A DNA stretch of 64,000 nt, from positions 1-64,000 of the forward strand of contig JAHHHH010000001.1 of NCBI GenBank assembly GCA_019359415.1. Reading direction: 5' to 3'. This document shows positions 24,777 through 40,111 of this stretch, one piece after another. How positions within the stretch are numbered: the first letter of the stretch is position 1; each line of letters begins with the position of its first letter. The translations under genes and the position numbers were made by a program. The stretch comes from Iphinoe sp. HA4291-MV1. Lineage in GTDB: Bacteria > Cyanobacteriota > Cyanobacteriia > Cyanobacteriales > Nostocaceae. The notes beneath the pieces were generated by a model. That model ran no database searches. It was not told where the DNA came from and saw only the letters and a list, made by a program, of their open reading frames with translations.

Positions 24777-24782
24777 AGAATT

Positions 24783-26150
24783 ATGAAGCGGAACGAAAAC
24801 CTGAAAAAATCAGCAGGAAACTTAGTATTAACATCACCCCAAGCAGGAATTCTCAAACGGTCTAGTATGATTGTATTATTCCTCGCTTCTGCGATGTTTC
24901 CACGAGTTCTTTCCGCAATAAAGTTTCCATCAGTCGTTAACTTTTTGCATTTTGCTTTTGCTCTAGCCTTATTTGTATGGGTAATACCTATAATTCGTAG
25001 TCGAATTGCTGTACGGCTCTTAGTGGGACTATTAATTTTATTAACAATAAGCACATTCAGCGCCCTGCTCAATAAAGCAGGTCTTATCAATGTTCTCCTC
25101 AATTTTTTAATGCTTGCTGAGCCTTTTATATTGTTAATAGCAATTACCAGTACAAAGCTACCTCAAAATAGCATTAAAAAACTTCAAAAGTGGATATTTA
25201 TATTTATCTATATTCATCTAGTATTTGTTTATTGTCAAAAATTTATTCTTAAGGTACCTACTAATGATGATGTCAAGGGGATTTTTCTAAATATGGGAGC
25301 AGGGCATCACGTAGGAGGTGATGTTGCCCTAACTTTTGGAGTTTACTTCCTTTTAGCTTCTGGAGTCCGCTCAATCTGGTTACGTATATTTGTATTTATT
25401 TTGTGTTTGGGAAATATTCTTGTTGCTGATGTCAAACAGGTAGTCATTGCATTTCTCGTCTCCTGGTTTATCTTAATAATAACGCAATTCAAGGAAATTT
25501 GGAAAGCACTCATGTATTTAGGAATTGCTATTCCAACTACTATAGGAGTTCTGAAAATCATCAACACTCTGTATGCTGGAATACGCTACATATCCGATAT
25601 GGAGGTAGTCACAGAAGCTTTTCAATATAAATTATCTGTATTTTCTATTATTACTTCCTTCTACAAGTCCGATCTAAATTGGTTGTTTGGGCTGGGACCA
25701 GGTCATACTATTAGTCGCTTAGGTTGGCTAATGAAAGATTACATACAATTTCTGAAACCATTAGGTGTTACTGGCTCTTCTGTTTTTAATACAGTATGGA
25801 TTGCCCAAGAGAGCTACTACTGGTCTAATAGTATTACTGGCTCTAGTATGTACTCTTTATTATTCTCTTGGGCAGGTATTTGGGGAGATTTAGGAATTAT
25901 AGGATTAGGGGTATACTTGTATCTCTGGTTTTTAGTCTGGAAGTATGTCTGTGTAGATAAGCTCTCAAAATTTTTTCTAATTACTGTGTTTGTGGCTGGT
26001 TTCATTTTTTCTTGGATGGAAGAACCTGCTTTTATGCTTTTTGTAGTTAGTCTCATTGGACTGCAATGGCAAAAATACCATGCAGAAAAATCTCATATAT
26101 TATCGCAACAAAAAATGCAAAATTATCCTTTTGAAGAGGTATTAGAATAA
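24783..26150 (+). CDS. O-antigen polymerase/ligase-like membrane protein (Wzy/WaaL type)
   Basis: A 455-residue polytopic membrane protein with roughly ten to twelve hydrophobic segments, beginning around residue 27 (SMIVLFLASAMFPRVL). The large periplasmic-type loop near residues 270-340 contains NWLFGLGPGHTISRLGWL, comparable with the O-antigen ligase family. Such proteins polymerise repeat units or attach them to an acceptor in the periplasm. With a Wzm/Wzt exporter in the same locus its exact role is open: it may serve a parallel Wzx/Wzy-type route or act as a ligase. Sequence conservation in this family is low, so the assignment rests on topology and context. Confidence 0.75.
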   Translation: MKRNENLKKSAGNLVLTSPQAGILKRSSMIVLFLASAMFPRVLSAIKFPSVVNFLHFAFALALFVWVIPIIRSRIAVRLLVGLLILLTISTFSALLNKAGLINVLLNFLMLAEPFILLIAITSTKLPQNSIKKLQKWIFIFIYIHLVFVYCQKFILKVPTNDDVKGIFLNMGAGHHVGGDVALTFGVYFLLASGVRSIWLRIFVFILCLGNILVADVKQVVIAFLVSWFILIITQFKEIWKALMYLGIAIPTTIGVLKIINTLYAGIRYISDMEVVTEAFQYKLSVFSIITSFYKSDLNWLFGLGPGHTISRLGWLMKDYIQFLKPLGVTGSSVFNTVWIAQESYYWSNSITGSSMYSLLFSWAGIWGDLGIIGLGVYLYLWFLVWKYVCVDKLSKFFLITVFVAGFIFSWMEEPAFMLFVVSLIGLQWQKYHAEKSHILSQQKMQNYPFEEVLE

Positions 26151-26303
26151 AGCATATACAGCAGGAGTCAGAAGTCAGAAGTAAAAAGGGCTTTCTGTTC
26201 AGCTTTTAGACCTCAGAATTGTACTTCATTTACTTGCAATGTGCTGTAAATTCAGTCAAATATTAAAAAATATATTAAGTATAAAATTCTCAGGATTAAT
26301 TCT

Positions 26304-27509
26304 ATGAAAATTCTGATTGCCCATAACCGCTATCAGTACGTGGGAGGTGAAGATGTCGTTGTACAAGCTGAACGTACACTGTTAGAGTCCTACGGACATA
26401 ACGTCCTATTATGGGAAGTTAATAATGATAGCATTGTGGGAATGCAAGGAAAGATAAAAGCGGCGCTTTCTGCTGTATATTCACTGACATCAAGAGAGCA
26501 AATCAAAGAAAAAATTTCTCATTTCCGTCCCGACATAGTTCACATACATAACTTTTTTCCTCTGCTTTCTCCAGCAGTATACGATGCTTGCCAAGATGCA
26601 AAGATACCAATAGTACAAACGCTCCATAACTATCGGCTCGGATGTCCAAAAGCAATGCCATTCCGAGATGGCAAAATCTGTGAAGATTGTATTGGCAAAG
26701 TCGTACCTTGGTCTGGTGTTGTCCATGGATGTTATCGTGGATCATGGGTACAAAGTGCTTCTGTAGCCACAATGTTGACTTTTCACACATTTCGTGGTAC
26801 TTGGCAAAACCGAGTGGATGCTTACATCGCCTTGACCAACTTTCATAAAGATAAAATGGTTCAGGCGGGCTTACCAAAGGACAAAATTCACATCAAACCT
26901 AATTTTGTACCAGCTCCTAAATTTCAATCTGAAACCAGTAAGTTGAAAAACTATGCACTTTTTGTAGGACGACTTTCACAAGAAAAAGGCGTAGCAATGT
27001 TGATTGATGCTTATGCACAAAGTAATTTGAGCATACCACTAAAAATCGTGGGTGATGGTCCATTGGATGAAGTGCTACGCCAGCAAGTACAGACTAAAGG
27101 ACTTGGAGAGAACATCACATTTTTAGGGCGACAAAATAAAGCAACTGTATTGGAACTCATGTACAATGCCAAATTTCTGATATTTCCTTCTATTTGGTAT
27201 GAAGGTTTTCCGTTAGCGATCGCAGAGGCGTTCGCCTGTGGTTTACCTGTGATAGCTCCCAAATTAGGAAGTATGGCAGAAATTGTAGAAGATGGACTCA
27301 CAGGTCTGCACTTTGAAGCAGGAAATTCACTAGATTTGGCAGCTAAAATAAATTGGGCAATAACTCACCCTGAAGTATTAGATACAATGGAAATAAATGC
27401 CCGCTGCACTTACGAATCTAAGTACACTCCTGAAGCTAATTACAAACAGCTAATGGAAATTTATAACCAAGTTATTAACAAAGTCAAAGTTGAATCACAG
27501 AAAAGGTAA
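26304..27509 (+). CDS. Family 4 glycosyltransferase
   Basis: A 401-residue GT-B enzyme. The N-terminus MKILIAHNRYQYVGGEDVVV and the cysteine-containing block LHNYRLGCPKAMPFRDGKICEDC (near 110-132) place it in a GT4 subgroup common in capsule and EPS loci. The donor domain has LFVGRLSQEKGVAMLIDAY near 221, VGDGPLDEVLRQQ and the catalytic block YEGFPLAIAEAFACGLPVIAPKLG near 299-322. This is the last glycosyltransferase of the locus; the strand switches downstream. Start ATG 26304; the 153-bp gap upstream contains gtcagaa-type short repeats. Confidence 0.93.
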   Translation: MKILIAHNRYQYVGGEDVVVQAERTLLESYGHNVLLWEVNNDSIVGMQGKIKAALSAVYSLTSREQIKEKISHFRPDIVHIHNFFPLLSPAVYDACQDAKIPIVQTLHNYRLGCPKAMPFRDGKICEDCIGKVVPWSGVVHGCYRGSWVQSASVATMLTFHTFRGTWQNRVDAYIALTNFHKDKMVQAGLPKDKIHIKPNFVPAPKFQSETSKLKNYALFVGRLSQEKGVAMLIDAYAQSNLSIPLKIVGDGPLDEVLRQQVQTKGLGENITFLGRQNKATVLELMYNAKFLIFPSIWYEGFPLAIAEAFACGLPVIAPKLGSMAEIVEDGLTGLHFEAGNSLDLAAKINWAITHPEVLDTMEINARCTYESKYTPEANYKQLMEIYNQVINKVKVESQKR

Positions 27510-27662
27510 GTAGCTAGGTCTAAATATATCAGGACTTACGCAAAAACTCTCTCAAACTCTTATTCCTTTGTGTACTTCGTGTCCTTTGCGGTTCGTTTTT
27601 CCCTTTACCATGCCCGTTGCAAGAGCTTGTCCGTAAGAAATCAGGGCGTTGACATCTACCAG

Positions 27663-28898
27663 TTACCTGTGGCAGAAATACATTGTGATTAAACGGATAG
27701 GTCGCAGAATATAGTACAAAAAAGAGAGATGTTTAGGTAGTGGTAAAAACACTTGGTCTGCTACTGTTGGTACGATTAAATGCTCAAAACAGTACAAAAC
27801 TTTATCTAATGGATGTTCTATCAATTGAAGATGAAAAAAGAAGCTTTTCACTTTATAGTTTTGCAGAGAACTTTCAGTCTGATTAAAAAGCTGCGTATAA
27901 ATTTGGCAAGTGAGAGACTCTAGTAGTGGGTTAGCTTGTATTTGCTGTAGAATATTCTTCGGAAGCTCAACTTCTAAAAGTTCATGCGCTAGTAAAAGAC
28001 CAAGTAAGAGAATTCGCGTCATACGCAACTGAGCTGCGCGTTCACACATTCTCTCCCAATTAATTTCATCAGAGGTGTGGATGAGTTGAGCAATATCACA
28101 AACTCGACTTAGCTGTTGCCAACAGTCCTTAGCCCCTTGAGAACAGAGAACCAAGATGAGATCCTCCAAGGCAAAATTAAGAATCATCTTATTAGCAAAA
28201 GGCTTTAGCTGAGCATCCTCCCATATCCATTCTGTATCAAACAAAAATGAGAATTGCTTTGGTAACATTCCGTGGTGAAGGTCTATTGTAACGCGATCGC
28301 GCTCATCCACCAGATGCAGTTCCCAGTGAGATTGTAAGTAAGCCTTCTGTTGTTCTGGTTTAAGGGTACTAAGGTAAATTGCTTCTTTCTCACTACTGTT
28401 GGAGTATGGTCGGTATCCTTGAGCCACCAGTACTTCTTTTGTTTTGAAAAAATCTTGTTTGCGAACCAAAATATCTAAATCATAGAAATTCCTACGTGAA
28501 ACATCACCATAGACTGAAATGGCGAGAGTAGGACCTTTAAATGGAATAATAGGGATATTATTCGCCTCAAAAAGCTCTAATAACTTTAGTAGTTTACTTG
28601 TCAAGATAAGGTTGCGTTGAGTTCTTGCATACTGGTCATATTGAAGCTGCTGTTGAAAAGTTGTAGGAACTGATTGTGGACATATCTGATGTAAACTCCA
28701 GTAAAGGAGCGGTGTCACACCATTTCTATACGCTGTTTGAATAAGGTAATTCCAGTCTATATCTTCTTGAACCAAAGCTTTGATACGCTCAGTCATCGAA
28801 TGATTGAAGTTAGTGCGGGCACAACAAAGAAGTAGCTCTATTTCGGGGCAAGTTGCGATTTTCCGACTTTTAGCTGCGATTTTAGATAAGATTTGCAT
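27663..28898 (-). CDS. Nucleotidyltransferase family protein (NTP_transf_5 type), RiPP-associated
   Basis: A 411-residue protein. The centre matches the uncharacterised nucleotidyltransferase family (PF14907): ANNIPIIPFKGPTLAISVYGD followed by RRNFYDLDILVRKQDF, with the DLD metal-binding pair near residues 145-147. TIDLHHGMLPKQF gives the third acidic position. Members of this family occur beside lasso-peptide and other RiPP clusters with HPr-like kinases. Here it lies at the 3' end of the lasso-type cluster on the same strand, separated from the ABC exporter by a truncated FkbM-type gene and repeats. Transfer of a nucleotide to the peptide or to a tailoring intermediate is a guess from context. 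Confidence 0.8.
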   Translation of the reverse strand: MQILSKIAAKSRKIATCPEIELLLCCARTNFNHSMTERIKALVQEDIDWNYLIQTAYRNGVTPLLYWSLHQICPQSVPTTFQQQLQYDQYARTQRNLILTSKLLKLLELFEANNIPIIPFKGPTLAISVYGDVSRRNFYDLDILVRKQDFFKTKEVLVAQGYRPYSNSSEKEAIYLSTLKPEQQKAYLQSHWELHLVDERDRVTIDLHHGMLPKQFSFLFDTEWIWEDAQLKPFANKMILNFALEDLILVLCSQGAKDCWQQLSRVCDIAQLIHTSDEINWERMCERAAQLRMTRILLLGLLLAHELLEVELPKNILQQIQANPLLESLTCQIYTQLFNQTESSLQNYKVKSFFFHLQLIEHPLDKVLYCFEHLIVPTVADQVFLPLPKHLSFLYYILRPIRLITMYFCHR

Positions 28899-29290
28899 GA
28901 GTGCGTTAGGCTATATCATTGTTGTTATGACCATCATTTCTGAGTGCTGTTTAATCATTTGTTAAAAATCATCATCAGCGAATATAGAACTTAGCTTAGT
29001 GAAGACAGAACTATGTGCTATTTTCTATGTTCATCACAAGTTACTTTTCCAATCCAAAATTTTGTCACAATTCATTGCTTTTTAGGTCTTTATTTCTAGG
29101 AATCGCCAAAATGTTGCCTACTCTAGGTGAATTTAAGCCTGTTAAGCTACCATTTTGTTCTACGAGAAAGAACTCATAGCCCCACTCCTTTAATAAATTT
29201 TTGCGGCTTGCCGGAGGCATCGCTATTAGCCCGTAGAAATCAATCGAACCCTAAATCCTTATTTTATCGTTAATTCATTAAGTGTATGTT
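28899..29290. other. Gene-free stretch left of the truncated FkbM gene
   Basis: About 390 bp with stops in all frames and no recognisable RNA. It is AT-rich and ends in the 32-bp repeat at 29291-29322. It may be the inside of the mobile element that truncated the FkbM gene, or ordinary spacer. Confidence 0.35.
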
Positions 29291-29322
29291 TTGTCAATCC
29301 CATTTGAGATGCGCTTACCCTG
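29291..29322 (+). repeat. 32-bp repeat, copy 2 (candidate mobile-element end)
   Basis: Matches 95-126 at 29 of 32 positions in the same orientation. The FkbM-type reading frame on the minus strand loses homology exactly where this repeat begins, just as the wzt fragment at 121-803 does at the other copy. No inverted partner end was found in the window. Confidence 0.5.
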
Positions 29323-29515
29323 CCGATTTTAGTTTTGGTGGTAAGTAGAAGGAAATTCCACTTTGCGGTAATTTAATCGTTGCAGGAATTTTCAATGCAC
29401 AGTACATTCCCCAAATCGCCATGCGCAATATGGCTGTGACAGGAGACTTTTTAAAAAATTTATGCTGCTTGAGATGATTCCATTTAGCAATAAAATAATT
29501 TAAATTTGTGTTCAT
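29315..29515 (-). pseudogene. N-terminal fragment of an FkbM-type methyltransferase
   Basis: A 66-residue frame with a good start (ATG 29515 after aaaggaag). It contains IKLPQSGISFYLPPKLKSAG, the strand that precedes the SAM-binding domain in FkbM-family methyltransferases. The frame then enters the 32-bp repeat at 29322 and stops, so the whole catalytic domain is missing. It lies within the lasso-type cluster. An O-methylation step was therefore probably once part of the pathway or of a neighbouring glycan gene. Confidence 0.6.
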
Positions 29516-29639
29516 GATTACTTCCTTTGAATTTATTCCTATCTAAATGATTGTGATTAGATAAAATTGCTTTCAATGGTCGCACTTAAATCGCCTGCAC
29601 GTATGATTTTCAAGTAGTTTATAATACAAACAAATTTAC

Positions 29640-29746
29640 TATAGCAATCCGATTTGATTCTTGAATCACTCGTAGAGACAGGGAACAGGGAAGAAGGAAT
29701 AAAGGTGTACTGAGTTTTTTTCAAAAATCAAATAGGAGTCCTATAT
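29640..29746 (+). mobile_element. MITE-like repeat, copy A
   Basis: This 107-bp element is nearly identical to 55300-55413. Its ends are imperfect inverted repeats: tatagcaatccgatttgatt on the left and aatcaaataggagtcctata on the right. It has no coding capacity. Copy B differs mainly by a 7-bp insertion. Related end sequences occur at 37169-37202 and near 56892. Confidence 0.75.
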
Positions 29747-29794
29747 ACTCGGCGCTGTTTGATTACTTTTACTCTGTCAATCAATTCTGATCCG

Positions 29795-29967
29795 GAAAGG
29801 CGGCGATCATGCAGAGCACCTGCTGAGTCCTCCGGACACGCACTCGCGTAAGTCCGGAGGACACAGGCTGCGCCAACGCGATGGCACGGAGTGCGCGCCA
29901 AGGGCGATGCTCCGGAGGAGCCGCTTCTCCTGACGGAGACGCTACGCGAACGCGATCGCATTCCTTC
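29795..29967. repeat. Cluster of small GC-rich palindromes
   Basis: This stretch between copy A of the MITE and the ABC exporter is much richer in G+C than its surroundings. It consists of back-to-back inverted repeats (for example gtcctccggac with gtccggaggac at 29829-29863) and HIP1. The core gggcgatgctcc-NN-aggagccgcttctc recurs at 53948-53974. It lies directly after the 3' end of the lasso-type operon and could act as its transcription end, but no classical T-run follows. Confidence 0.6.
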
Positions 29968-31785
29968 CTATTTACCAGAGCTAGCTTGCATTTGCGCTTT
30001 CCAAGACTCAGCATAGAGACCATCTTGGGCAAGTAGCTCATCATGACTACCCGACTCGACAATCTGACCATTACGCATGACGTGAATAATATCGGCTCGC
30101 ATTGCCAGAGTGAAACGATGAGTAATGACAATTGCAGTACGATCATTCGCCATGATGCGGAATCGCTCTAGCCAGTCGTGTTCAGCCCAAGGGTCCATTG
30201 CACTGGTAGGTTCATCCAGAATGATAATCTCAGCTTTTCTAAAAAATGAGCGTGCGAGGGCAAGACGTTGCCATTCTCCTCCACTCAAGTCATTCCCACC
30301 GGGAAACCATTTGCCCAACATGGAATCGTAACCTTGGGGTAAACGCATAATCGTTTTATGAACCCCAGCAGCAATAGCCGCCGCCTCAATTGCAGCCATA
30401 CCAGCAGTCGCAGATAAATCTCCTAGTGCAATATTCTGGCTAGCTGTCACAAAATAAGGAACTGGAGACTGAAACAAAATCGTAATCTGGCGTCGGAGTT
30501 CTGCAACTAAAAAATTCCTGATATCTTTACTGTCTAATTCAACTCTCCCTGACTCAGGATCGTAGAAACGGCAGAGCAATTTGGTCAGCGTGCTTTTACC
30601 AGCACCATTATCACCTACAATAGCAACGATTTTGCCAGCGGGAATGGTGAGATTAAAGTTTTCTAGAACAGCGCGATCGCACCCTGGATAGCGGAATGTT
30701 ACGTCACTAAAGCAAATTCCCTCTCTCAGTTTCCCTGGTAGAGGTAGTGGTTGCGGTGGATCTACAACTTTGGGTTCAATCTGCAAAAACTCAAAAAGGT
30801 CACTAATAAGTAGGCTATTTCTATAAATTTGCCCCAAGTTTCCTAGCGCAGACCTCATCAACCCTTGACCTTGATGAAAGGCTTGGTAAAACAGAGCTAA
30901 GTCGCCCAAAGTGATGATTCCTAGTAGGACTTGCTGACCCATGTAAACAACAGCAGTACCAGAAATTAACAAAATAATCAACCCAGCAGCGAGACGACCT
31001 AAATTCTGCTCTTTGACTAACCTTAAATTTTCAGTACGTAGCCTATGGCGTATCTTACAGTAAGCTGATTGGAAAAAATCACCCAGGTTGAACAGCCGCA
31101 TTTCAGCTGCATAGGTGCTGTTGGTAAGTAGTATTTCATAGTACTCAAGCCAACGCCGATCTATAGTTGTCCGCTGCCACCAGTGGTGATACCGTTGATT
31201 TAAGTGCAGTACAACGTATAAAGCTGGCAGGGCAGAGAATAATAAAAAGAAAGGTAGCCAGACACCATAGGGGAGTAAGACTGCCACCATAGTTAAAAGA
31301 GTAACACTGTTTTGTAGCAGATTACCCGTATTTTCTATTAACGCAAGAGAACGATTACCAGCACCGCTACGTGCTCGGTTCAGGCGGTCATGGTACTCCG
31401 ATGACTCATAACAGCCGAAATCAATACTTATAGATTGGGAATGAACTAAACTACTAATATAATCCTGTACTAGTTCCGATTGAACCGTACGAATCCATTC
31501 ACCTGCACTGACTAAAAACTCGGTAAGCAACAACAGACCTGCCATCAATCCAATTGGAATTAGGACTGTTTGGATAGTTCCCCAGGAAATCCCAGCACCG
31601 ACAACAGCAACTAAGCTGTTAACAACTAGCCGAGTCAGGTAGACTCCTACTGTAGGAAGCAACCCTTGAACCACTAGCAACAGCAACCAGGTTAAAGTCC
31701 AATAGCAGGATGCAGCCCAAACTAGCCTAAAAGTTTGGGGCAAATAAGATAGTTGACCTATGGTGCGGTTTAACTTAGTAGTCAA
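29968..31785 (-). CDS. ABC transporter, fused permease-ATPase; probable lasso-peptide exporter
   Basis: A 605-residue half-transporter. About six membrane helices occupy residues 20-310 (for example TLTWLLLLVVQGLLPTVGVYL). The nucleotide-binding domain carries Walker A VGDNGAGKSTLTKLL near 387, signature LSGGEWQRLALARS near 496 and Walker B EIIILDEPTSAMD, ending with the switch histidine in VITHRF. There is no peptidase C39 domain, consistent with leader removal by a separate peptidase (B2 at 35476). It starts 12 bp after the kinase-like gene, so both belong to one operon. The mature modified peptide is its likely cargo. Confidence 0.88.
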   Translation of the reverse strand: MTTKLNRTIGQLSYLPQTFRLVWAASCYWTLTWLLLLVVQGLLPTVGVYLTRLVVNSLVAVVGAGISWGTIQTVLIPIGLMAGLLLLTEFLVSAGEWIRTVQSELVQDYISSLVHSQSISIDFGCYESSEYHDRLNRARSGAGNRSLALIENTGNLLQNSVTLLTMVAVLLPYGVWLPFFLLFSALPALYVVLHLNQRYHHWWQRTTIDRRWLEYYEILLTNSTYAAEMRLFNLGDFFQSAYCKIRHRLRTENLRLVKEQNLGRLAAGLIILLISGTAVVYMGQQVLLGIITLGDLALFYQAFHQGQGLMRSALGNLGQIYRNSLLISDLFEFLQIEPKVVDPPQPLPLPGKLREGICFSDVTFRYPGCDRAVLENFNLTIPAGKIVAIVGDNGAGKSTLTKLLCRFYDPESGRVELDSKDIRNFLVAELRRQITILFQSPVPYFVTASQNIALGDLSATAGMAAIEAAAIAAGVHKTIMRLPQGYDSMLGKWFPGGNDLSGGEWQRLALARSFFRKAEIIILDEPTSAMDPWAEHDWLERFRIMANDRTAIVITHRFTLAMRADIIHVMRNGQIVESGSHDELLAQDGLYAESWKAQMQASSGK

Positions 31786-31797
31786 GACTTTATAACC

Positions 31798-32871
31798 CTA
31801 CAAAAGATTCTTCCGGAGTGAATTTGGAATTTTGAATTCCCCCGTGTCTCCTCCGCAGGAAGCACGGGGATTGGCAAGGTCTTCTTCTACAAGTTTCACA
31901 ATATCGGGAAGTGCGGCTAGGGAACGTCGCCTTCTCAAACGAGAGACAGGAACCTTTTTGAGAAGTTCTGTACATAGATGCAGATGAGAACTGACGAAAT
32001 CTTCAGTTATTAATACATTAGTCACCCGCGAGTGACGTACAAATTCCACAAAAGCTTCTTGAATATGGAGAGGTTTTACTTCATTGTGGGAGTGCCAAAG
32101 ATTTTCCAGCACATATATTTGCTTTAATGGCAAAGGTTTTTGTGGGAATCTTTGACTAAGATGATTATTGCGTTTTGGTGCTCTTGTGTGAATGAAAGCT
32201 AATGACTCAAAGTCATGACCAAAAGAAGCAGCAGAATCAGGTAACAATCTGACATAGGGGTAGCCTGGAAAAATCATTGGATAAATGCCTTCAACTTGGA
32301 TTGCCATTACATCATCGGTGAGGAGGCTATATCCTTGGTTGTAGAAAGCATTAGCCAAGGTTGATTTCCCCCATCCTGAATGACCTAAGAATGCAACAGC
32401 CTCACCATTGATGGCAACACTACTAGCATGGAGAACCAGCAGTCCTCGCTGCCGAAGCAGTACAGCAAAGATTGGTCCTAAAATACAAGGGCGAAGAATA
32501 TCCTCTGCAATCCCTGGCGCTGGTTCAACAACAATCTTGTGTCCAAACTCTACTAAAAATCTACCTATCTGTGGACTCTCCATAAACCCTAGCAACCGAT
32601 TTCCTCCATTGGCTGCTTCTGCTTCACAGTTGCTAATCTGACGATGGTAAATGACCACATCTGGCAGCTGCTCAGTAGTATCTGGCGTCACCTTGCAAGA
32701 TACCAGCTCAGGAAAAGCCAGCTCAGAGTGAATACAAAGATTGTAAGCAGAGTAAACAAACACTTTTAAAGAACCTTTCACACTCTTACACCCAGTCTCA
32801 ACAACAAAACTTTGTGCGTCAGTTCTAAGAGGAATAACTTCAGAGGAATGGCTACGGATATCCATAGCCAT
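31798..32871 (-). CDS. HPr-kinase-like protein of the lasso-type cluster
   Basis: A 357-residue protein with a divergent N-terminal region and an HPr kinase/phosphorylase-like domain: LLVLHASSVAINGEAVAFLG, then P-loop GHSGWGKST at 163-171 and the acidic pair LLTDDVMAI near 186. Homologues in lasso clusters (the ThcoK/PadeK group) phosphorylate the precursor peptide. Here the substrate would be a serine or threonine of the precursor at 33016, which carries the run SSS at residues 42-44. ATG 32871 or ATG 32865 is possible; the latter has aagga at better distance. It is encoded between precursor and exporter. The phosphorylation role is inferred, not shown. Confidence 0.8.
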   Translation of the reverse strand: MAMDIRSHSSEVIPLRTDAQSFVVETGCKSVKGSLKVFVYSAYNLCIHSELAFPELVSCKVTPDTTEQLPDVVIYHRQISNCEAEAANGGNRLLGFMESPQIGRFLVEFGHKIVVEPAPGIAEDILRPCILGPIFAVLLRQRGLLVLHASSVAINGEAVAFLGHSGWGKSTLANAFYNQGYSLLTDDVMAIQVEGIYPMIFPGYPYVRLLPDSAASFGHDFESLAFIHTRAPKRNNHLSQRFPQKPLPLKQIYVLENLWHSHNEVKPLHIQEAFVEFVRHSRVTNVLITEDFVSSHLHLCTELLKKVPVSRLRRRRSLAALPDIVKLVEEDLANPRASCGGDTGEFKIPNSLRKNLL

Positions 32872-33015
32872 TCCTTATCTTTCCCTGCCTATCAATTTAA
32901 GATTGGCTAACTACTAGAAGGAAAGTAGATTCAGAGTTACTAGAGCGTTGAGCGCTAGTGACAAGAGCAAGCTGTCAGGAAAGATACAGCAACCTTCCTA
33001 AAATTCTGGGGATCA

Positions 33016-33219
33016 CTAATTCACTTTACAATTGTCATTTGTTGTTGGTTGCCCTTGACCAAAAATACAAGCGTCAAGAGAGCCTTGACTAGATGACAAA
33101 GCCGTTTGACCATCTGTCCCGAACAAGAAATCTGTTCTATTAGATCCTCCGGTTAAAGCTGTGATTTCGCTGATACTACCGTGGTTGAGAAGCTTAGGAG
33201 CTTCGTAGGTCTTTTTCAT
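33016..33219 (-). CDS. Lasso-type RiPP precursor peptide (A)
   Basis: A 67-residue peptide that starts at ATG 33219 after agaggt. The leader has the recognition pattern YxxPxLxxxG (Y5, P8, L10, G14) bound by PqqD-like B1 proteins. T20 fits the conserved threonine at -2, which would place the core at L22 with D30 as a ninth-position acid. A core starting at G24 would make a seven-membered ring to the same D30. The remaining tail is long (37 residues after D30), with a serine-rich stretch, two cysteines (C51, C64) and an asparagine end. Typical lasso cores have about 15-25 residues, so further trimming or an unusual product is possible. All needed enzymes are encoded around it. Confidence 0.8.
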   Translation of the reverse strand: MKKTYEAPKLLNHGSISEITALTGGSNRTDFLFGTDGQTALSSSQGSLDACIFGQGQPTTNDNCKVN

Positions 33220-33397
33220 CGTTTTTACCTCTTGTGTTGTGCAGAATGATGGTGGAGATAGCCACCTTGAATATTAGGACTCATAAATCATGGACATCAC
33301 TTTGTAGTGGAACTTCTTCTACTGTTTGATTTACAGCACATTGTTCGTGCGTGAAGTACAAAGAGTAAGGTTTAAAAGCCAGACACCAGAACAAATT

Positions 33398-35479
33398 TTA
33401 CTTCTGTTCGCGCAGCGTGCCCGGAGGGCATATTCTGACTTCTGACGCCTTTATTCTGCTGTAAGTGTGACGCAACCAAAGAGCAAACATTGCTACCTGC
33501 CAGAGAGATACATCTATTAAGCTTTCAGGTGGCTTAATGTGTTTTCCGGATATTAATTCTTCGTAGATTTTACGTAGGTTGTTTGTATTCACATATTCAG
33601 CAATGTCGGTCAGATGATTTTGCATCACTTCGTCCACAAGTTCTCGGTTATGTACCAAGAGTCCGTGAACAAAACTCAAACTCATATCGCTTTTTCCACG
33701 ACGCCACTGGACTTGTTCGGGTAGAATCTTTGTCATGGCACGGCGCATCACAAGGCGAGACCACCCTTGATTAAGCTTTTGCTCAGGAGGGAGAGATAGA
33801 CAGAACTCAATCAACCGTTTATCCATAAATGGGTGACGGAGTTCCAAGGAAAAGGCTGTGGCGTAGTGATCCGATACTTCTAGCCCTAGGGTTAACACAC
33901 CTGAAGTCAAACCTCGCCAGTGTCGTTCCCTTTCAGTGAGGAGCTGACGAGATGGAAAATCTGTGAAAGCTTGGATACGCTTGTTCAGAGCGATTTGTTT
34001 GGCAAAGCTACGCTTAATAATAGATTGCCTACTTTTGGGAAGTTGCTTGCGTCTGCGTAATACTCGCCAAGCTGACAGTAGGGACTGAGGGAACAAAGGT
34101 TTTAAGCCATGCTGTAGAAAAAGCTGTCGCCGTGAAATATTAAAGTGTTGCAACAGCTGATTCGTTTCTCTGACAAAATCAACCCATTTCCAACCTCTTG
34201 CCAGTTCTTCTAGGTATAAAAGACCATGTTCTCGAAGATAATGGAACGGTGAAAGACCGAGTTTATAGAGATCACCAACTTCTTTAGCGAACTCTGCCCA
34301 CATTCCTTTCCTCACCAACTCAGTTAGATAACCATCGCCGTGGGAGATAGTGTTATCACCATCAAACCCATCTAGAACAACTCGAACTCCCTCCTGATAA
34401 GCAGCATGGTTCAATCCCCAAAGTAGAAAATGGGTAGGAGCAGGAACGACATCATCGTGGTATTGGAAAATTTGCTCTAAGTTGGATAGAGGACCCTGTT
34501 GGTCAGCATGGACGTAATGAGGAACCATGCCACCTTGGGCGAGTACAGCCTCAATAAAGGGGCGCTCATCACACTCGCTGATTGTATCAAAAATGTTAGA
34601 AAAAGTGTACAACGGGCGACTGTTGGCTCCTTCTTCTGTTATTAGCTGCCGTGCCATGCAGGTGACAGAAGAAGAGTCTAACCCACCACTCAGATGGGAA
34701 CCGATTGGGAAAGCGCTACGCAGGCGACACCGCACAGCCTCAGCAAATATTTCACGTAATGCTTCAGCATATTCCTCATCAGAACTCAACCGCAACTCAC
34801 TACAAGGGTCAAGTGACCAGTAAGAGCGAATTTGCATTCCCTTGGCGCTCAACGCCATGCAGCTACCAGGAGGAAGACGAAAGATGTCTTGATAAAAAGT
34901 GTTGGACTTGTCATCACATATCGATGCCAGATAGTCGCCTACTTTTATCTTGTTCAGCAGGCGTGGTACCTCCTGCAAACATAGCAAAGCTTTAATCTCT
35001 GAACCGAAAGCTAGTATTTTACCTGCTTGAAAGTAATAATAGAAGGGTTTTACACCCATGTGATCGCGGGCGCAAAATAGAGACTGTTTTCGCCCATCCC
35101 AAATGGCAAAAGCAAAATCACCTAGGAGATACTCTGGACATTTCTCACCCCATTTTTCGTAAGCTGCCAAAATGAGCTGGCTATCTGTAATTTTTTCCTG
35201 TGGACTGTCAAAGTGTAGCTTGGAGATGAGTTCATCGCGATTATCTACACGTGCATCAGATGTTATCACTAAATCGCCAGTCTTATTGACTAAAGGTAAC
35301 TCCTCTAGGAGAGACTCGGGTGTTGTCCATAGCATTCGGTGTCCCAAACCTATAGATCTATCAACCCAGATGTCTGCACCATCTGGCCCCCGATGCTCCA
35401 AAATATCAAGCATCCGCCTCAAGTCCGCACTGTCTACAGGACGACCGTTAAGATAGTAAACACCCATAATGCCGCTCAT
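33398..35479 (-). CDS. Lasso cyclase, asparagine-synthetase-like (C)
   Basis: A 693-residue homologue of asparagine synthetase B. The N-terminal class II amidotransferase domain (LEHRGPDGADIW near 28, ADARV-like strand) begins M-S-G-I instead of the glutaminase M-C-G-I. The nucleophilic cysteine is therefore missing, and ammonia production is unlikely, as expected for peptide cyclases. The synthetase domain has the PP-loop SHLSGGLDSSSVTC near 257, which would adenylate the aspartate side chain before macrolactam formation. ELRHPFMDKRLIEFCLSLP near 552 is conserved in McjC-type enzymes. It overlaps B2 by 4 bp; the precursor follows 178 bp downstream. Confidence 0.9.
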   Translation of the reverse strand: MSGIMGVYYLNGRPVDSADLRRMLDILEHRGPDGADIWVDRSIGLGHRMLWTTPESLLEELPLVNKTGDLVITSDARVDNRDELISKLHFDSPQEKITDSQLILAAYEKWGEKCPEYLLGDFAFAIWDGRKQSLFCARDHMGVKPFYYYFQAGKILAFGSEIKALLCLQEVPRLLNKIKVGDYLASICDDKSNTFYQDIFRLPPGSCMALSAKGMQIRSYWSLDPCSELRLSSDEEYAEALREIFAEAVRCRLRSAFPIGSHLSGGLDSSSVTCMARQLITEEGANSRPLYTFSNIFDTISECDERPFIEAVLAQGGMVPHYVHADQQGPLSNLEQIFQYHDDVVPAPTHFLLWGLNHAAYQEGVRVVLDGFDGDNTISHGDGYLTELVRKGMWAEFAKEVGDLYKLGLSPFHYLREHGLLYLEELARGWKWVDFVRETNQLLQHFNISRRQLFLQHGLKPLFPQSLLSAWRVLRRRKQLPKSRQSIIKRSFAKQIALNKRIQAFTDFPSRQLLTERERHWRGLTSGVLTLGLEVSDHYATAFSLELRHPFMDKRLIEFCLSLPPEQKLNQGWSRLVMRRAMTKILPEQVQWRRGKSDMSLSFVHGLLVHNRELVDEVMQNHLTDIAEYVNTNNLRKIYEELISGKHIKPPESLIDVSLWQVAMFALWLRHTYSRIKASEVRICPPGTLREQK

Positions 35480-35931
35480 AGTTTGATTCCTTCAAAAGAT
35501 GGCAGTGGGATAAACCGGGAAAGGTCTGTCATGTTTCCGATCGCAACTTGTCCTTGGTACTCAATCCAAGCGTGAGCTTCTAGTTTTCCTCCCTGTTCTT
35601 TGGCAACACCTATACGTAGTTCACATAAGTAACCATAGCGGCTCATGAGTAATTGTGTCGTCAAGGCGCGAGCCAGACACTTTGCTCTGCCAGGCATGTA
35701 GCGTGTTGCTACATTAACAGCCCAAATAATCTTGCCGACAGAAATTTGACTTTCATGAGTCTCAAATGGAAAACGAAAAGTTGGTTTACTTACTTTTTGC
35801 ACGAGCTTTAGTAAATTCCGAAAGGCGAGAAAAAATAGCCCTAACCTAATAGCCCCCAACAAGATAAAAGTGATTGCTAAAAGATAGCGATCGCTCCTAG
35901 AAAGTTCAAGAAAGTTACGCAACTGTTTCAT
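35476..35931 (-). CDS. Lasso leader peptidase, transglutaminase-like (B2)
   Basis: A 151-residue protein of the McjB C-terminal family. The cysteine-protease triad is visible: Cys in RAKCLARAL near 84, His in AHAWIEYQG near 120 and Asp in GNMTDLSRF near 135. A hydrophobic N-terminal half (YLLAITFILLGAIRLGLFFL) suggests membrane association. It cleaves the leader from the precursor, delivered by the B1 protein. The gene overlaps B1 by 17 bp and the cyclase by 4 bp, giving a tightly coupled B1-B2-C order. Confidence 0.9.
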   Translation of the reverse strand: MKQLRNFLELSRSDRYLLAITFILLGAIRLGLFFLAFRNLLKLVQKVSKPTFRFPFETHESQISVGKIIWAVNVATRYMPGRAKCLARALTTQLLMSRYGYLCELRIGVAKEQGGKLEAHAWIEYQGQVAIGNMTDLSRFIPLPSFEGIKL

Positions 35932-36232
35932 TCTTAACTTTAACTAGCTCTACAGCTTTCAATTCTTCCAGCAGTGCCAAAATATCTCTCATACAAACTT
36001 CGCTTTCCACTCCATATTCTTCCAAAAGCGTCTGTTTAATATCTTTCACCTCCTTGGGTTGCTGAATTAAATTCCAAATTCTTGATCCTACTTCATTTAG
36101 CCCGTGGTACACTCCCGATTTGAGATTCAGAATAACTGCTTCGCCACCAAGATCAGAAGATATCTGCTCTACAGCCGCTACTACTATCGACGACTCTGAG
36201 ATTTTGCTGTTCAATGATTTTGAAGACATCAT
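35915..36232 (-). CDS. PqqD-like RiPP recognition element (B1)
   Basis: A 105-residue protein of the PqqD family. The core reads SSDLGGEAVILNLKSGVYHGLNEVGSRIWNLIQ, then a helical region with LLEEYGVESEVCMRDILALLEEL. Such winged-helix proteins bind the YxxPxLxxxG motif of the leader and present the precursor to the leader peptidase and cyclase. It is the first gene of the cluster on the minus strand and overlaps B2 by 17 bp. The AT-rich 36,233-36,400 region upstream should hold the operon promoter. Confidence 0.9.
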   Translation of the reverse strand: MMSSKSLNSKISESSIVVAAVEQISSDLGGEAVILNLKSGVYHGLNEVGSRIWNLIQQPKEVKDIKQTLLEEYGVESEVCMRDILALLEELKAVELVKVKNETVA

Positions 36233-37201
36233 TCGGAAATTTCCTTGTTGGTCTTTGATTTTCTTCTAAACTTTATTTGTATAAATCCTATTATTAAATT
36301 ATTAAATTCTATTATTAAATACGTAATCATACTGGAAATCTGTCGAAAGGTACATTAATCTCACAAGCTTTGTAAGAGCATAAATAATAAATATATAGGT
36401 GTCTATACACTATTTCTCAAGCTCAAGAGTAAAAGATGACCAGTTTTCAAAACAGCAACAAATTGCGTTCTACTATTTAAGGCTATTCTTGTCTAGTAGA
36501 CGACCCGAACTCCACCAATTTCTTGAGCTTCAGAGGCTTCACTATGATAGAATAAACTATCACAGCCTCAACAGTTATAAATTGTCCCTGATATCAAAAT
36601 ATTTAAGAATCTAGATTTCAACCTGCGCTTTACGTTCGCAGTGGTAGATCTGTCGTTCTACAAACTTATCATTTTAAAATTTTTTTAAAATTTGTAGATA
36701 CTTACTTTTCATGGAGCCTTACGCCACATGATACTAGAAATTGCTAGCATCCTTCATCATGTTCATAAAAAAAACACAATAATATAATAATATTAAGTAT
36801 GTGTAAATTGACATATCTCACTGTTTGCAATGACTCAAAGGAGTCTCTCTATTTAAAAGAAAATTATACGTTTACTGACATGATGAGCGCTTTTTAATTT
36901 ATCTATTGAGAGAATATTTTCTAAATCTTTGCCTTTGAATTATGGAAAGAATTTTAAAGTTAAGAAGAACGCACCAACACACCAACGCAGCAATCATAAT
37001 ATCTCTCGCGTTTGAATTCGCGCTCCTACAGCACCGAAAGAATTCTCTTTTATCCACGAATGATAAATCCGCTTGCTCTTGAACTCTATCCCTCACCCAG
37101 AAATCAGCAATGTTTTCTGACAACTGAGGAGTGTGAGTTCTTTCTTGGTCAGTAAAAATTAAAATTTCTATAGCATTCCTAAATGATTCCGGATTGCTAT
37201 A
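36233..37201. other. Long AT-rich region without a convincing gene
   Basis: Nearly 1 kb upstream of the lasso-type operon. Two open frames (36399-36614 on + and 36899-37123 on -) have biased, low-information translations and no recognisable motif, so I do not call them genes. An imperfect palindrome starting tatagcattcctaa and ending ggattgctata (37169-37202) resembles the ends of the MITE at 29640. Promoters for the operon and an unannotated small RNA remain possible. Confidence 0.45.
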
Positions 37202-37534
37202 CTATTCAAAATCAACTTCTTGAAGTAAGGCTATCCACATGTCGGGTGGGTCAGAGTAGTAATCAATTTCCTCAATTTGATATCGAATAGCGTTAGACCC
37301 GTCACATAAGATGATATAATCTCCGCGTTTGATACCTCTACCCTGTCCTGTCATGTAACCTTTTGTCTGATTATCAACCGATTCAAAAACATAGTCATGC
37401 CCATTAACATATTGGGTATAGTCATATGTTTTACTCTGTAATTTTTTTGTTTTGCTTAGCGTTTTACCTAGTAAGAATTTATATAATGATAAGAAAATAA
37501 TATTAAGGTGGATGCCTAACCTGATATGAGACAT
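37202..37534 (-). CDS. Conserved hypothetical protein
   Basis: A 110-residue protein from ATG 37534 (the open frame extends to 37567). The N-terminus is moderately hydrophobic (LGIHLNIIFLSLYKFLLG). The C-terminal half is compact and mixed: GIKRGDYIILCDGSNAIRYQIEEIDYYSDPPDMWIALL. That block looks like a small beta-barrel with an RGD-I start, seen in cyanobacterial proteins of unknown function. It is isolated by spacers on both sides. No function can be assigned. Confidence 0.55.
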   Translation of the reverse strand: MSHIRLGIHLNIIFLSLYKFLLGKTLSKTKKLQSKTYDYTQYVNGHDYVFESVDNQTKGYMTGQGRGIKRGDYIILCDGSNAIRYQIEEIDYYSDPPDMWIALLQEVDFE

Positions 37535-37891
37535 AAGCGGTTGACAAAGAAATAGCGTTGACACCAAGAGTTATTTACTCTTACAACTAAGAAACATCAA
37601 ACGACGAAGTTCATCACAATAATTCTGGAGAAAAGCTAAATATTACGATAGACATTGTAATCTAGTATTTCCAGCAAACAAACAGTTGAACTACCTAAAA
37701 GCTCAAGGCTAATACGTTAACAGTACACTAGGATTTAATATGGCATGTAGAGAAAACGCCACTTGCTACAACGGGACAGCAGTTTCCACACTCCAGGGAA
37801 CCCTCCGAACGCGAATATGTGTCTGTAAGCTCCCCTAAGAGGAAGCTCGGCGAAAGGAAGCCGCCGCTCCGACTGGCTTTGCAACGCACTC
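37535..37891. other. Gene-free stretch with small palindromes
   Basis: No reading frame of note. The right half (about 37770-37890) contains imperfect GC-rich inverted repeats typical of the intergenic fillers in this genome. It lies immediately downstream of the transporter stop on the minus strand, so it may include that gene's transcription end. Confidence 0.4.
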
Positions 37892-39349
37892 CTACTGCTC
37901 CATCTCTGTTTTGTTTTGACGTTCCTTAAGTTGCAGTAAAATTTGCGCGTGCATTTCGCGGGTAATTGGATAGAAATACGTCAAAACTAAGCCACAAATT
38001 AAACAAATCGTAGGTATGGGACCAATTGCAATACGGATAGCAAAGAGTGCCGAGTCTGGTTGTATGGGTAGTGTATTTTGTCCTGCAACAGACTCTTTAA
38101 AACCAGACGCTTGTAATGCTATTCCTACCAAAAATAGACCAAATGCTAAACCAAACTTTTGCAACAAAACCATGAAGCCATAAAAAATTCCTTCGCGACG
38201 TTGTCCAGTTTGCAGTTCATCTAGTTCAATCACATCTGGTATCATCGACCAAGGAACAAGATAAGCCGTGGAGACACCAACCCCTGCCATGACTGCCAAA
38301 ATATACATTAAGCTCACTTGATTTGGTTGCAAGAAAAATAGCCCTGCTTGTGCTATAACCCAGAAGCTCATCCCCATAAAATAAACAGCTTTTTTTCCAA
38401 CTCTCTTACTCAAAGCACTCCAAACAAATAGCATGAAAAGGGCAGTTCCTTGCACCCCTATAAGTACTGTTGGTACATCTGATTCTTTAAGGCGCATCCA
38501 GTTAACAGCAAAGTAAGGAATGATACTTGCGGTTATTTGCACAGCTAACCAGGAAAAAAGATATATCCCGATAACATACAGAAAAGGTTGGTTGCTGAAG
38601 ACAATTTTTAGTTGTTCTCGGATGGGAATGGGTGCGCTTTCCTCTTGTGAAGTGCGTTTTGCTTCAAAAGCTATGATGCGATCGCGTGTTCCCCAAACGC
38701 ACAAATAGAGCGCCAATACTGAAATGACACCACAAATTGCTGCAAGCACTAGATACTGCTGCTGGCGATCGGCAATCTTATCAAAGATAACTTTCGCTAA
38801 TATCAACGATAGAATACTACCACCAATAGAAAAAGCAAAGCGAAAGCTGTTGAGGCTTGTACGTTCGTCATAGTCCTGAGTGAGTTCGGGAGTCATTGCG
38901 GTGTATGGCAAATTGACAACAGTATAAAAGACCTGAGATATCACCCCAATTGCCACGTAATACCAAAACAGTCCCCAAAAGTTGACACTCGCGCTACTAC
39001 TAAATCGCGGTACAATCCATTGTAGAAAGAAAAAAACTCCAAAGGGAATTGCGCCATAAAACATCCAAGGCAGACGCCGTCCCCAGCGAGATTTTGTTCT
39101 GTCGGTTAGTACCCCCATAATGGGGTCATTCACTGCATCCCAAATCTTGCCAATGAGTAATATCATACCAGCTAATCCTGCTGGAATACCTGCGACATTA
39201 GTAAAGAAAACTAGTAAAAAGAAGATGGAAATATTCGCAGTAATCGCTGGTCCTAAATCGCCTGCACCAAAAGCCAGTTTTGTTTTTAAGTTTAGTTTTT
39301 CGCTTTCAGATGTTTGTTGAGGATAAGCACCCACGTCAGAATTGTTCAT
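37892..39349 (-). CDS. MFS transporter, glycoside-pentoside-hexuronide:cation symporter type
   Basis: A 485-residue inner-membrane protein with about twelve transmembrane segments. The N-terminal signature of GPH/MelB-like carriers is clear: KLAFGAGDLGPAITANISIFFLLVF, then GKIWDAVNDPIMGVLTDRTKSRWGRRLPWM (residues 67-96) with the conserved cation-site aspartates. The central loop is short and the C-terminus ends in a charged tail. Members import sugars or glycosides with Na+ or H+, but many cyanobacterial homologues are untested. Start ATG 39349; it is divergent from the phosphoribosyltransferase gene at 39405, with a 55-bp shared promoter gap. Confidence 0.9.
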   Translation of the reverse strand: MNNSDVGAYPQQTSESEKLNLKTKLAFGAGDLGPAITANISIFFLLVFFTNVAGIPAGLAGMILLIGKIWDAVNDPIMGVLTDRTKSRWGRRLPWMFYGAIPFGVFFFLQWIVPRFSSSASVNFWGLFWYYVAIGVISQVFYTVVNLPYTAMTPELTQDYDERTSLNSFRFAFSIGGSILSLILAKVIFDKIADRQQQYLVLAAICGVISVLALYLCVWGTRDRIIAFEAKRTSQEESAPIPIREQLKIVFSNQPFLYVIGIYLFSWLAVQITASIIPYFAVNWMRLKESDVPTVLIGVQGTALFMLFVWSALSKRVGKKAVYFMGMSFWVIAQAGLFFLQPNQVSLMYILAVMAGVGVSTAYLVPWSMIPDVIELDELQTGQRREGIFYGFMVLLQKFGLAFGLFLVGIALQASGFKESVAGQNTLPIQPDSALFAIRIAIGPIPTICLICGLVLTYFYPITREMHAQILLQLKERQNKTEMEQ

Positions 39350-39404
39350 AAAATTTTGTGCTCATATTAAAATCAAGGAATTTGCCCTACATTATTAGCA
39401 AGAA

Positions 39405-39941
39405 ATGAAGTTCCCTATGCCAGACCTTTACGTTTCTTGGTCAGATTATCACCAAAAAATTGAACAACTGGCTGCTCAAGTTCACCAATCCAGCTGGAAA
39501 TTCAACCAAATTGTTTGCATTGCCAGAGGGGGACTGCGCGTAGGAGATATTCTCTCACGTATTTACAAGCAGCCTTTAGCAATTTTGGCAACATCATCAT
39601 ACAGTGGTTCTGGTAAGCAAGAAAGAGGAAATTTAATATTTTCTCGTCACTTGACAATGACTACTGAAAATTTAGGTTCGCGTATTCTTTTGGTGGATGA
39701 CTTGGTAGACTCTGGAATCACACTCGAGCAAACAATCCCTTGGCTAAAAGAATATAGTGATGCTCCGATTGAAGAAATTCGTGCTGCTGTTATCTGGTAC
39801 AAAGCTTGTTCGGTTATAGCACCTGATTACTACGTTGATTATTTGCCTGACAACCCTTGGATACACCAACCTTTTGAACCCTACGAGTTGATGAGTCCAG
39901 CAGATCTTGTGGCAGTAGTTGGGGACTCTTGCGCTATATAA
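39405..39941 (+). CDS. Purine-type phosphoribosyltransferase
   Basis: A 178-residue type I phosphoribosyltransferase. The PRPP-binding motif ILLVDDLVDSGITLE is near residues 89-103 and CIARGGLRVGDILSR near 44-58 forms the pyrophosphate loop. Such enzymes salvage hypoxanthine, guanine or xanthine to nucleotides. The C-terminus (YYVDYLPDNPWIHQPFE) matches the xanthine/hypoxanthine group. ATG 39405 or ATG 39417 could be used. Substrate is inferred from family only. Confidence 0.85.
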   Translation: MKFPMPDLYVSWSDYHQKIEQLAAQVHQSSWKFNQIVCIARGGLRVGDILSRIYKQPLAILATSSYSGSGKQERGNLIFSRHLTMTTENLGSRILLVDDLVDSGITLEQTIPWLKEYSDAPIEEIRAAVIWYKACSVIAPDYYVDYLPDNPWIHQPFEPYELMSPADLVAVVGDSCAI

Positions 39942-40111
39942 CCTTAAGGCTATAGAACTTTCCGGGTATACTGGCGTCCGCAACGAATCGTAGAAACTTT
40001 TGTCTACACAGACTCCAGAAAAACTAGCTATTTTCTCAAACGAATAATTGTTAGAAACGGTCGTGCCTCCACAAATGTTCGTTTTGCCGTACCATTTGTG
40101 TACCTACTATA

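Follow-up and report, generated by a model that had tools for sequence, protein, structure and literature searches.

The described systems closest to the locus reported here are lasso-peptide clusters that carry an HPr kinase-like (HPrK-like) enzyme. Paeninodin-type kinases are described as acting exclusively on a Ser at the C-terminus of their precursor (PMC8498205, PMC9266682), BsfK from Bradymonas phosphorylates Ser3 of the core in a reaction that B1 speeds up (PMC10368454), and LppK phosphorylates Ser3 of a linear relative (PMC13381572), so that BsfK and LppK are published precedents for phosphorylation away from the C-terminus. In the pseudomycoidin cluster, the phosphate is reported to receive one or two hexoses through the action of a nucleotidyltransferase (PMC8498205). 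Here we compare these systems with the window, a stretch of 64,000 nucleotides from the cyanobacterium Iphinoe sp. HA4291-MV1 (contig JAHHHH010000001.1, positions 1 to 64,000), whose minus strand holds, from 36232 to 29968, an operon that almost certainly encodes a lasso peptide and belongs to the lasso_cyano group of cyanobacteria.

The product of this operon may be a 46-residue phosphorylated, possibly glycosylated lasso peptide of class IV type, made beside a rhamnose/galactofuranose-type polysaccharide locus; we put the probability of this reading at about 0.5. In the proposed pathway B1 would bind the YxxPxLxxxG leader and B2 would cleave after Thr(-2)-Ala(-1), as homology indicates. The kinase would phosphorylate the linear precursor, most likely at tail Ser26 (in GSLD) and not at the C-terminus, after which C, again judged by homology, would join Leu1 to Asp9 and so close a ring of 9 residues, through which the exceptionally long tail is threaded. 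The peptide would be exported by the ATP-binding cassette (ABC) protein, a disulfide between Cys30 and Cys43 might form outside the reducing cytoplasm, and a PF14907 protein could add a sugar to the phosphate like its pseudomycoidin counterpart. A first-pass annotation, made from the sequence letters, had suggested a possible nucleotidylation at this point, which is not supported; the pseudomycoidin enzyme is reported to transfer hexoses.

Gene content, precursor and predicted core

The gene order on the minus strand is B1-B2-C-A-kinase-ABC (36232 to 29968), followed by an NTP_transf_5 nucleotidyltransferase gene (28898-27663). B1 overlaps with B2 and B2 with C. The operon has the parts by which lasso clusters are recognised, namely a recognition element (RRE) of ribosomally synthesized and post-translationally modified peptides (B1), a transglutaminase-like B2, an asparagine-synthetase-like C and a precursor with a YxxPxL leader. 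As C is present, it is not a cluster for linear polyphosphorylated peptides (LPP), where the macrolactam cyclase is absent.

For comparison, the cyclase model was searched at E 1e-100 against 218 genomes of the same family and 386 genomes drawn from the phylum, and the cyclase was identified in 85 (84 over the model cut-off) and 20 (17 over the cut-off) of these, respectively, while PLSDB plasmids gave no match at the same threshold. We fetched 80 neighbourhoods, which together with the window make 81 loci with 79 distinct main cyclases. Most of them show the one-strand order B1-B2-C-A(1 to 5 copies)-K-ABC-(nucleotidyltransferase), where K is the kinase, and the arrangement is therefore not due to chance. 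Among the 69 loci with enough flank, K was found in 69, A in 67, B1 in 65, ABC in 64, B2 in 63 and the nucleotidyltransferase in 42, as counted by similarity to the window proteins, by which distant copies may be missed. Among 30 additional loci, most of them with lower scores, a kinase model matched in 27; of the other three, one lies at a contig end and two lack B1 and B2. Related loci share descent, which means that none of these counts is independent.

The first-pass annotation had proposed a lasso cluster of a cyanobacterium with B1, B2, C, the precursor, the HPrK-like protein and the ABC exporter on one strand. All six genes and the overlaps of B1 with B2 and of B2 with C were confirmed, and the assignment is supported by the NCBIfam models, the conserved gene order and a related precursor beside a homologous kinase (locus L122). 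The nucleotidyltransferase gene that it added to the cluster is present but lies outside the interval it had delimited (29968..36232). Against the NCBIfam model lasso_PqqD_Bac, B1 scored 77.7 bits, 2.3 below the cut-off of 80; its residues E31, L35, G40, Y42, G49, W53, Y73 and C80 are invariant in 76/76 relatives. Cys85 and His120 of B2 are conserved in 72/72 relatives and Asp136 in 65/72. In the whole genome B2 is the sole match to PF13471 at E 0.001, and A is the only match to NF033528 lasso_cyano.

C begins with MSGI instead of MCGI, and thus has Ser2 in place of the glutaminase Cys2 of asparagine synthetases. All 81 cyclase N-termini read (79 distinct) have Ser2 and never Cys, as expected from the earlier remark that the glutaminase cysteine is missing. 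Kinship with true asparagine synthetases would have spoken against a lasso cyclase; C clears the lasso cyclase cut-off (Table 1), yet it also passes the broad asparagine-synthase model TIGR01536 (290.4 bits, cut-off 267.1). Related precursors beside homologous clusters, the other point on which the annotation had made itself dependent, were likewise found: a leader-bearing precursor stands behind the cyclase in 79/81 loci.

We searched the 2.5 kb that follow the cyclase for a leader pattern (Y..P, G, Thr or Ile) and obtained 123 distinct precursors. Since the leader pattern was the search criterion, the leader itself is no independent evidence, and the finding that residue -2 is Thr in 123/123 precursors and Ile in none is informative only for the choice between the two. 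A has a leader M1-A21 (Y5..P8.L10...G14.....T20) and a core L22-N67. An Asp at core position 9, which was not a search criterion and falls in the range of positions 7-9 where lasso macrolactams have Asp or Glu, is seen in 114/123 precursors and in the window, so that the predicted window core of 46 residues, LTGGSNRTD-FLFGTDGQTALSSSQGSLDACIFGQGQPTTNDNCKVN, would have a 9-residue ring followed by 37 residues. We discarded the alternative that the core starts behind 'LT', at Gly24 or Gly25, since with T20 as Thr(-2) the Asp falls on position 9 in the window and in 114/123. The 123 cores comprise 17 short (24-32 residues) and 106 long ones. The nearest precursor found is that of L122, which lies close to a contig end, 356 bases ahead of its kinase gene and on the same contig as L085; its core, FSGGSNRTDFLFGTDGQ...GSLDAC, has GGSNRTDFLFGTDGQ and GSLDAC in common with the window core.

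The gap between the ABC and nucleotidyltransferase genes, 1.07 kb in the window, is shorter than 500 bases in 29 of the 40 loci that hold both genes. A 66-aa open reading frame at 29315-29515 matched no Pfam or NCBIfam family over the cut-off and nothing in seven same-genus loci. In 9/81 loci we observed a protein family of 406-425 aa (e.g., L042:6344-7618, minus strand, and the ABC-nucleotidyltransferase gaps of L044, L047, L058, L076 and L093), which is absent from this gap in the window. The L042 copy ends with a PqqD/RRE domain after ∼350 residues without a family match over the cut-off, and the family is possibly another tailoring enzyme. An Rfam scan of 24000-40000 gave nothing over the gathering score. 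A promoter scan gave 29 sites where 18.4 (standard deviation 3.7) were expected, an excess that is assigned to no particular promoter, and a terminator scan gave 6 where 7.6 were expected.

The tail serine and the paired cysteines

Judged from the precursor sequences, the kinase acceptor is most likely Ser26 in the tail and not the C-terminus. The window precursor ends ...NCKVN and thus has Asn where paeninodin has its C-terminal Ser. A C-terminal Ser was found in 18/123 precursors, 12 of the 17 short cores and 6 of the 106 long ones. A tail motif, [GDN]-S-x-[D/N], could be identified in 86/123 precursors; when the tails were shuffled 500 times, it was found in 16.6 precursors on average and never in more than 28. 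This strict motif is present in 85/106 long cores and 1/17 short cores; its Ser is commonest at core position 26, and the short cores ending in Ser are 24-26 residues long. With a looser anchor, Ser (99) or Thr (6) is seen in 105/106 long cores, but this anchor was chosen to contain Ser/Thr and only the strict count is evidence. The Ser3 site of BsfK is missing, as the window has Gly3 and the Ser/Thr fraction at core position 3 is 0.0 over the 106 long cores.

K has all eight catalytic residues of BsfK with identical numbering (H148, G163, G166, G168, K169, S170, D186, and D187). The predicted structure of K (mean predicted local distance difference test score, pLDDT, 87) matched PEPCK best and HPr kinase next, while its profile scores (22.8 bits for PF07475 and 35.6 bits for TIGR04352) are each under their own cut-off. 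A sequence search of solved structures gave nothing usable for K (best E 0.053) and no match for the nucleotidyltransferase, in which K121, G122, D140 and D142 are invariant among 20 aligned relatives. The phosphorylated peptide of the first-pass annotation is thus plausible, given a kinase with the catalytic residues in 69/69 complete neighbourhoods, but the analogy to the C-terminal Ser of paeninodin does not fit a precursor that ends in Asn. In the kinase tree, 9/10 short-core kinases fall in one group (support 100/99). In this large group of cyanobacterial lasso clusters, nearly all members examined have a peptide kinase, but the C-terminal Ser is mostly absent.

The long cores contain either no Cys (51 of 106) or two (54), with one exception that has a single Cys. 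When the 109 Cys were placed at random, exactly one Cys was found in a mean of 38.9 cores and never in fewer than 24 (1000 trials), as against the observed 1/106. Where there are two Cys, both follow the motif Ser in all 54 cores, the first of them at a distance of 4 or 5 residues in 46. This pattern suggests a disulfide within the tail, as in the class IV topology, and a tail that is kept; for the window peptide it suggests a Cys30-Cys43 bond. A 2026 review names 30 and 33 residues as the records for loop and tail (PMC13352647), and these peptides, including the 46-residue window core, would exceed both cases if the tail is kept.

Several points weigh against Ser26 and against the pathway built around it. 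The whole proposal is deduced from sequence, and 22/123 precursors have neither the strict motif nor a C-terminal Ser, although 18 of these 22 still have Gly-Ser or Gly-Thr somewhere in the tail region (a weak test). The long-core kinases of L110 and L114 stand beside the short-core group, whereas that of the short-core locus L121 has a long branch in another part of the tree. Among the 69 complete and 30 further loci we found no cyanobacterial lasso cluster without a kinase that could have served as a control. The nucleotidyltransferase was not found in 27/69 clusters, and its pseudomycoidin counterpart is only presumably the PF14907 protein PsmN. Kinase residues 279-282 were tried as an acceptor code (RH[ST]R for long cores, mostly xNSY for short ones), which fails with 140 distinct kinases; several C-terminal-Ser clusters have RHSR, RHTR or QHSR at these positions, and the code was therefore not used. 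The phosphate could instead be placed on ring Ser5 or on a Thr/Ser in positions 18-23. In one such reading, which is unlikely, the kinase would modify ring Ser5 or the Ser21-Ser23 run, and GSxD would be kept for threading, cyclase recognition or as a plug. In its favour, BsfK modifies ring Ser3 (PMC10368454), so that the site varies between clades, and GSxD is not invariant among the precursors. Against it, Ser/Thr occurs in at most 36% of the long precursors at each of the core positions 1-15, the range that was compared one by one.

The tail might also be trimmed to a paeninodin-like peptide, so that the residues behind Ser26 are a removed follower, Ser26 becomes C-terminal and the ordinary rule applies. 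We consider this unlikely. In its favour, the commonest position of the motif Ser, 26, falls where the short relatives end in Ser (24-26), and three short-type precursors extend slightly behind the same Ser (LTFS-GTF twice and LTFS-ETPMRG once). Against it, apart from B2, C, K, ABC, the nucleotidyltransferase and the RRE-ended protein (9/81), no same-strand family of at least 150 aa is found in more than 6/81 loci, and no second conserved protease was thus seen. A pair of Cys within the extension of 54/106 long cores is odd for a discarded piece, the extension varies from 5 to 31 residues in length (loose anchor), and the substrate of PadeK is the precursor and not the threaded peptide (PMC8498205, PMC9266682). 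Far less probable is an unmodified lasso peptide whose kinase and nucleotidyltransferase genes serve immunity, regulation or the neighbouring polysaccharide. The operon does abut a polysaccharide locus, and the HPr-kinase models matched K with scores under their cut-offs, but the kinase stands behind the cyclase in 69/69 complete neighbourhoods and neither gene was found in the 20 lasso-free polysaccharide loci examined (see below). The HPrK-like lasso kinases of Bacillota, Sphingobium and Bradymonas, moreover, modify the precursor (PMC8498205, PMC10368454, PMC9266682).

Some precursors differ from the window precursor in other ways. L119 (Moorena sp., on the contig of L161) has five successive precursors in one cluster, with two tail Cys each. 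Behind lasso-type leaders, L173 and L175 (Symploca) have (GGR)n repeat tails, and L175 has four of these precursors near one kinase. The divergent clade L202-L205 has a leader Y..P..K.YGTMK, and cores such as ASSGSGGD, which suggest an 8-residue ring and long Asn/Ser-rich tails. In L199 (Planctomycetota bacterium), a related kinase has three leader-bearing peptides no more than 1 kb away, which end with GGSISC, SGSISC and SASASAC, and not with Ser.

The polysaccharide slot and the mosaic operon

Positions 1-27.5 kb of the window are a polysaccharide locus with dTDP-rhamnose genes, a Wzm/Wzt-type exporter, glycosyltransferases and a UDP-galactopyranose mutase. The operon lies between this locus and orf121, and two adjacent penicillin-binding proteins with a transpeptidase and a dimerisation domain (41438-43354 and 43744-45597, minus strand) are found upstream of the slot. 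The polysaccharide side includes a 455-aa membrane protein, for which neither Pfam nor NCBIfam gave a match at E 0.01. The structure predicted for it (mean pLDDT 76) resembles the O-antigen ligase WaaL (Foldseek against 7tpg_B: E 8.9e-5, prob 1.00, template modelling (TM) score 0.53). The protein is present in 32/81 lasso neighbourhoods, always on the opposite strand and with 35-89% identity to the window copy. It was found in 85/218 family genomes, 51 of which also have the cyclase, a co-occurrence with an odds ratio of 4.5 (p 2.4e-7, without correction for kinship). In these 51 genomes the two genes are at most 15 kb apart in 35, 15.5-24.1 kb in 6, 228 kb in 1, and on different contigs in 9.

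Both slot borders (orf121 and the ligase-like polysaccharide side) are present in 26/81 lasso loci. In L242, from a lasso-free genome, orf121 and the glycosyltransferase are 0.36 kb apart, which represents an empty slot. Of 34 genomes with the polysaccharide locus but without the lasso operon, 20 loci were examined, some of them cut by a contig end, and none contained the nucleotidyltransferase, K, B1, B2 or C. The nucleotidyltransferase thus accompanies the lasso operon rather than the polysaccharide genes.

The seven same-genus loci were compared by protein identity, a tree being built for the kinase alone. They are uniformly close to the window in orf121 (66-73%) and B1/B2 (80-88%). The window C is nearest to that of L042/L044 (72%), K and ABC are nearest to L085/L098/L064 outside the genus, and the nucleotidyltransferase, the glycosyltransferases and the ligase-like gene are nearest to L043/L045/L046 (76-90%), while the nucleotidyltransferase and ligase of L042/L044/L047/L048 share 37-40% identity with those of the window. 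The simplest reading of these identities is that C-A-K-ABC was exchanged as a block between constant borders, and the gap at 28899-29967 may be a scar of such a cassette exchange.

Bacillota clusters of paeninodin type also lie in capsular polysaccharide loci, where their role is called unknown (PMC13381572). Our literature search gave no report of a link between lasso operons and polysaccharide loci for cyanobacteria, with many subscription papers beyond its reach. A polysaccharide neighbourhood in both Cyanobacteria and Bacillota (PMC13381572) suggests a function in the cell coat or in biofilms. The phosphorylated tail Ser might even be a glycan handle, by which the kinase, the nucleotidyltransferase and the glycosyltransferase/WaaL-fold locus put these lasso peptides, with their long tails and disulfides, into the cyanobacterial sheath polysaccharide, with the peptide cassette swapped between strains at a fixed site like surface antigens; this we regard as improbable. 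The link may also be old synteny without function.

Table 1. Features of the window that are discussed in the text, by position.
Feature	Position	Strand	Basis
455-aa membrane protein, WaaL O-antigen-ligase-like fold	24783..26150	+	Foldseek 7tpg_B
GT4 glycosyltransferase, downstream border, convergent	26304..27509	+	PF00534 131.2 bits
N, NTP_transf_5 protein	27663..28898	-	PF14907 197.8 bits, cut-off 31.2
Gap between ABC and nucleotidyltransferase, 1.07 kb	28899..29967		No ATG reading frame of at least 80 aa inside
ABC exporter, TTG start as listed	29968..31785	-	PF00005; MsbA/HlyB-like models below cut-off
K, HPrK-like peptide kinase	31798..32871	-	Conserved residues; PEPCK/HPrK predicted fold
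A, 67-aa precursor	33016..33219	-	NF033528 lasso_cyano 67.7 bits, cut-off 33
Core Cys30 to Cys43, proposed tail-tail disulfide	33028..33069	-	0-or-2 Cys rule
Core Ser26 of G-S-L-D, proposed phosphate acceptor	33079..33081	-	[GDN]S.[DN] in 86/123
Predicted 9-residue ring LTGGSNRTD, core Leu1 to Asp9	33130..33156	-	Asp9 in 114/123
C, lasso macrolactam cyclase	33398..35479	-	NF033535 lass_lactam_cya 1039.6 bits, cut-off 525
B2, leader peptidase, Cys85/His120/Asp136	35476..35931	-	PF13471; NF033537 lasso_biosyn_B2 116 bits, cut-off 33
B1, PqqD-like RRE	35915..36232	-	PF05402 70.4 bits, cut-off 23.4
orf121, upstream slot border	37202..37567	-	Same strand, at most 3.1 kb from B1 in 33/81 lasso loci

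Relatives and described systems

The best 80 of 141 kinase matches include relatives in Brasilonema, Scytonema, Rhizonema, Fischerella and Moorena, with outliers in Chloroflexi, Gemmatimonadetes, Planctomycetota and others. The precursor and cyclase families of the window are the same as those of the NCBIfam lasso_cyano/lass_lactam_cya clusters described for Cyanocohniella sp. LLY (PMC9332814) and Brasilonema CT11 (PMC7503407), which correspond to L144 and L133 in our set. The LLY core is given as 36 residues starting with Gly (PMC9332814); our rule, applied to the L070 precursor, gives 35 residues, also starting with Gly. A kinase, an acceptor residue or a polysaccharide link is not described in the available parts of these two reports (PMC9332814, PMC7503407).

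The paeninodin and pseudomycoidin clusters of Bacillota resemble the window in having B1, B2, C, A, an HPrK-like kinase and an exporter, and that of pseudomycoidin also has a nucleotidyltransferase. Unlike the window, where the 46-residue core ends with Asn and has two Cys, their kinase acts on a C-terminal Ser. The Bsf cluster of Bradymonas sediminis shares with the window a kinase, a nucleotidyltransferase and a precursor without a C-terminal Ser, but its acceptor is Ser3 where the window has Gly3, and its leader has Ile(-2) instead of Thr(-2) (PMC10368454). The LPP clusters of Bacillota have an RRE, an HPrK-like kinase, an NTP transferase, an exporter and polysaccharide surroundings like the window, which in contrast to them has a cyclase (PMC13381572). 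The class IV lasso peptide pandonodin has one disulfide inside its tail, as proposed for the window peptide; it has 33 residues with an 18-residue tail, named the longest in the 2026 review (PMC13352647), as compared with the 46 residues of the window core. The window cluster belongs to a known and common group; of interest are the great length of its tail, the probable site of a phosphate and the sugar-coat genes beside it.

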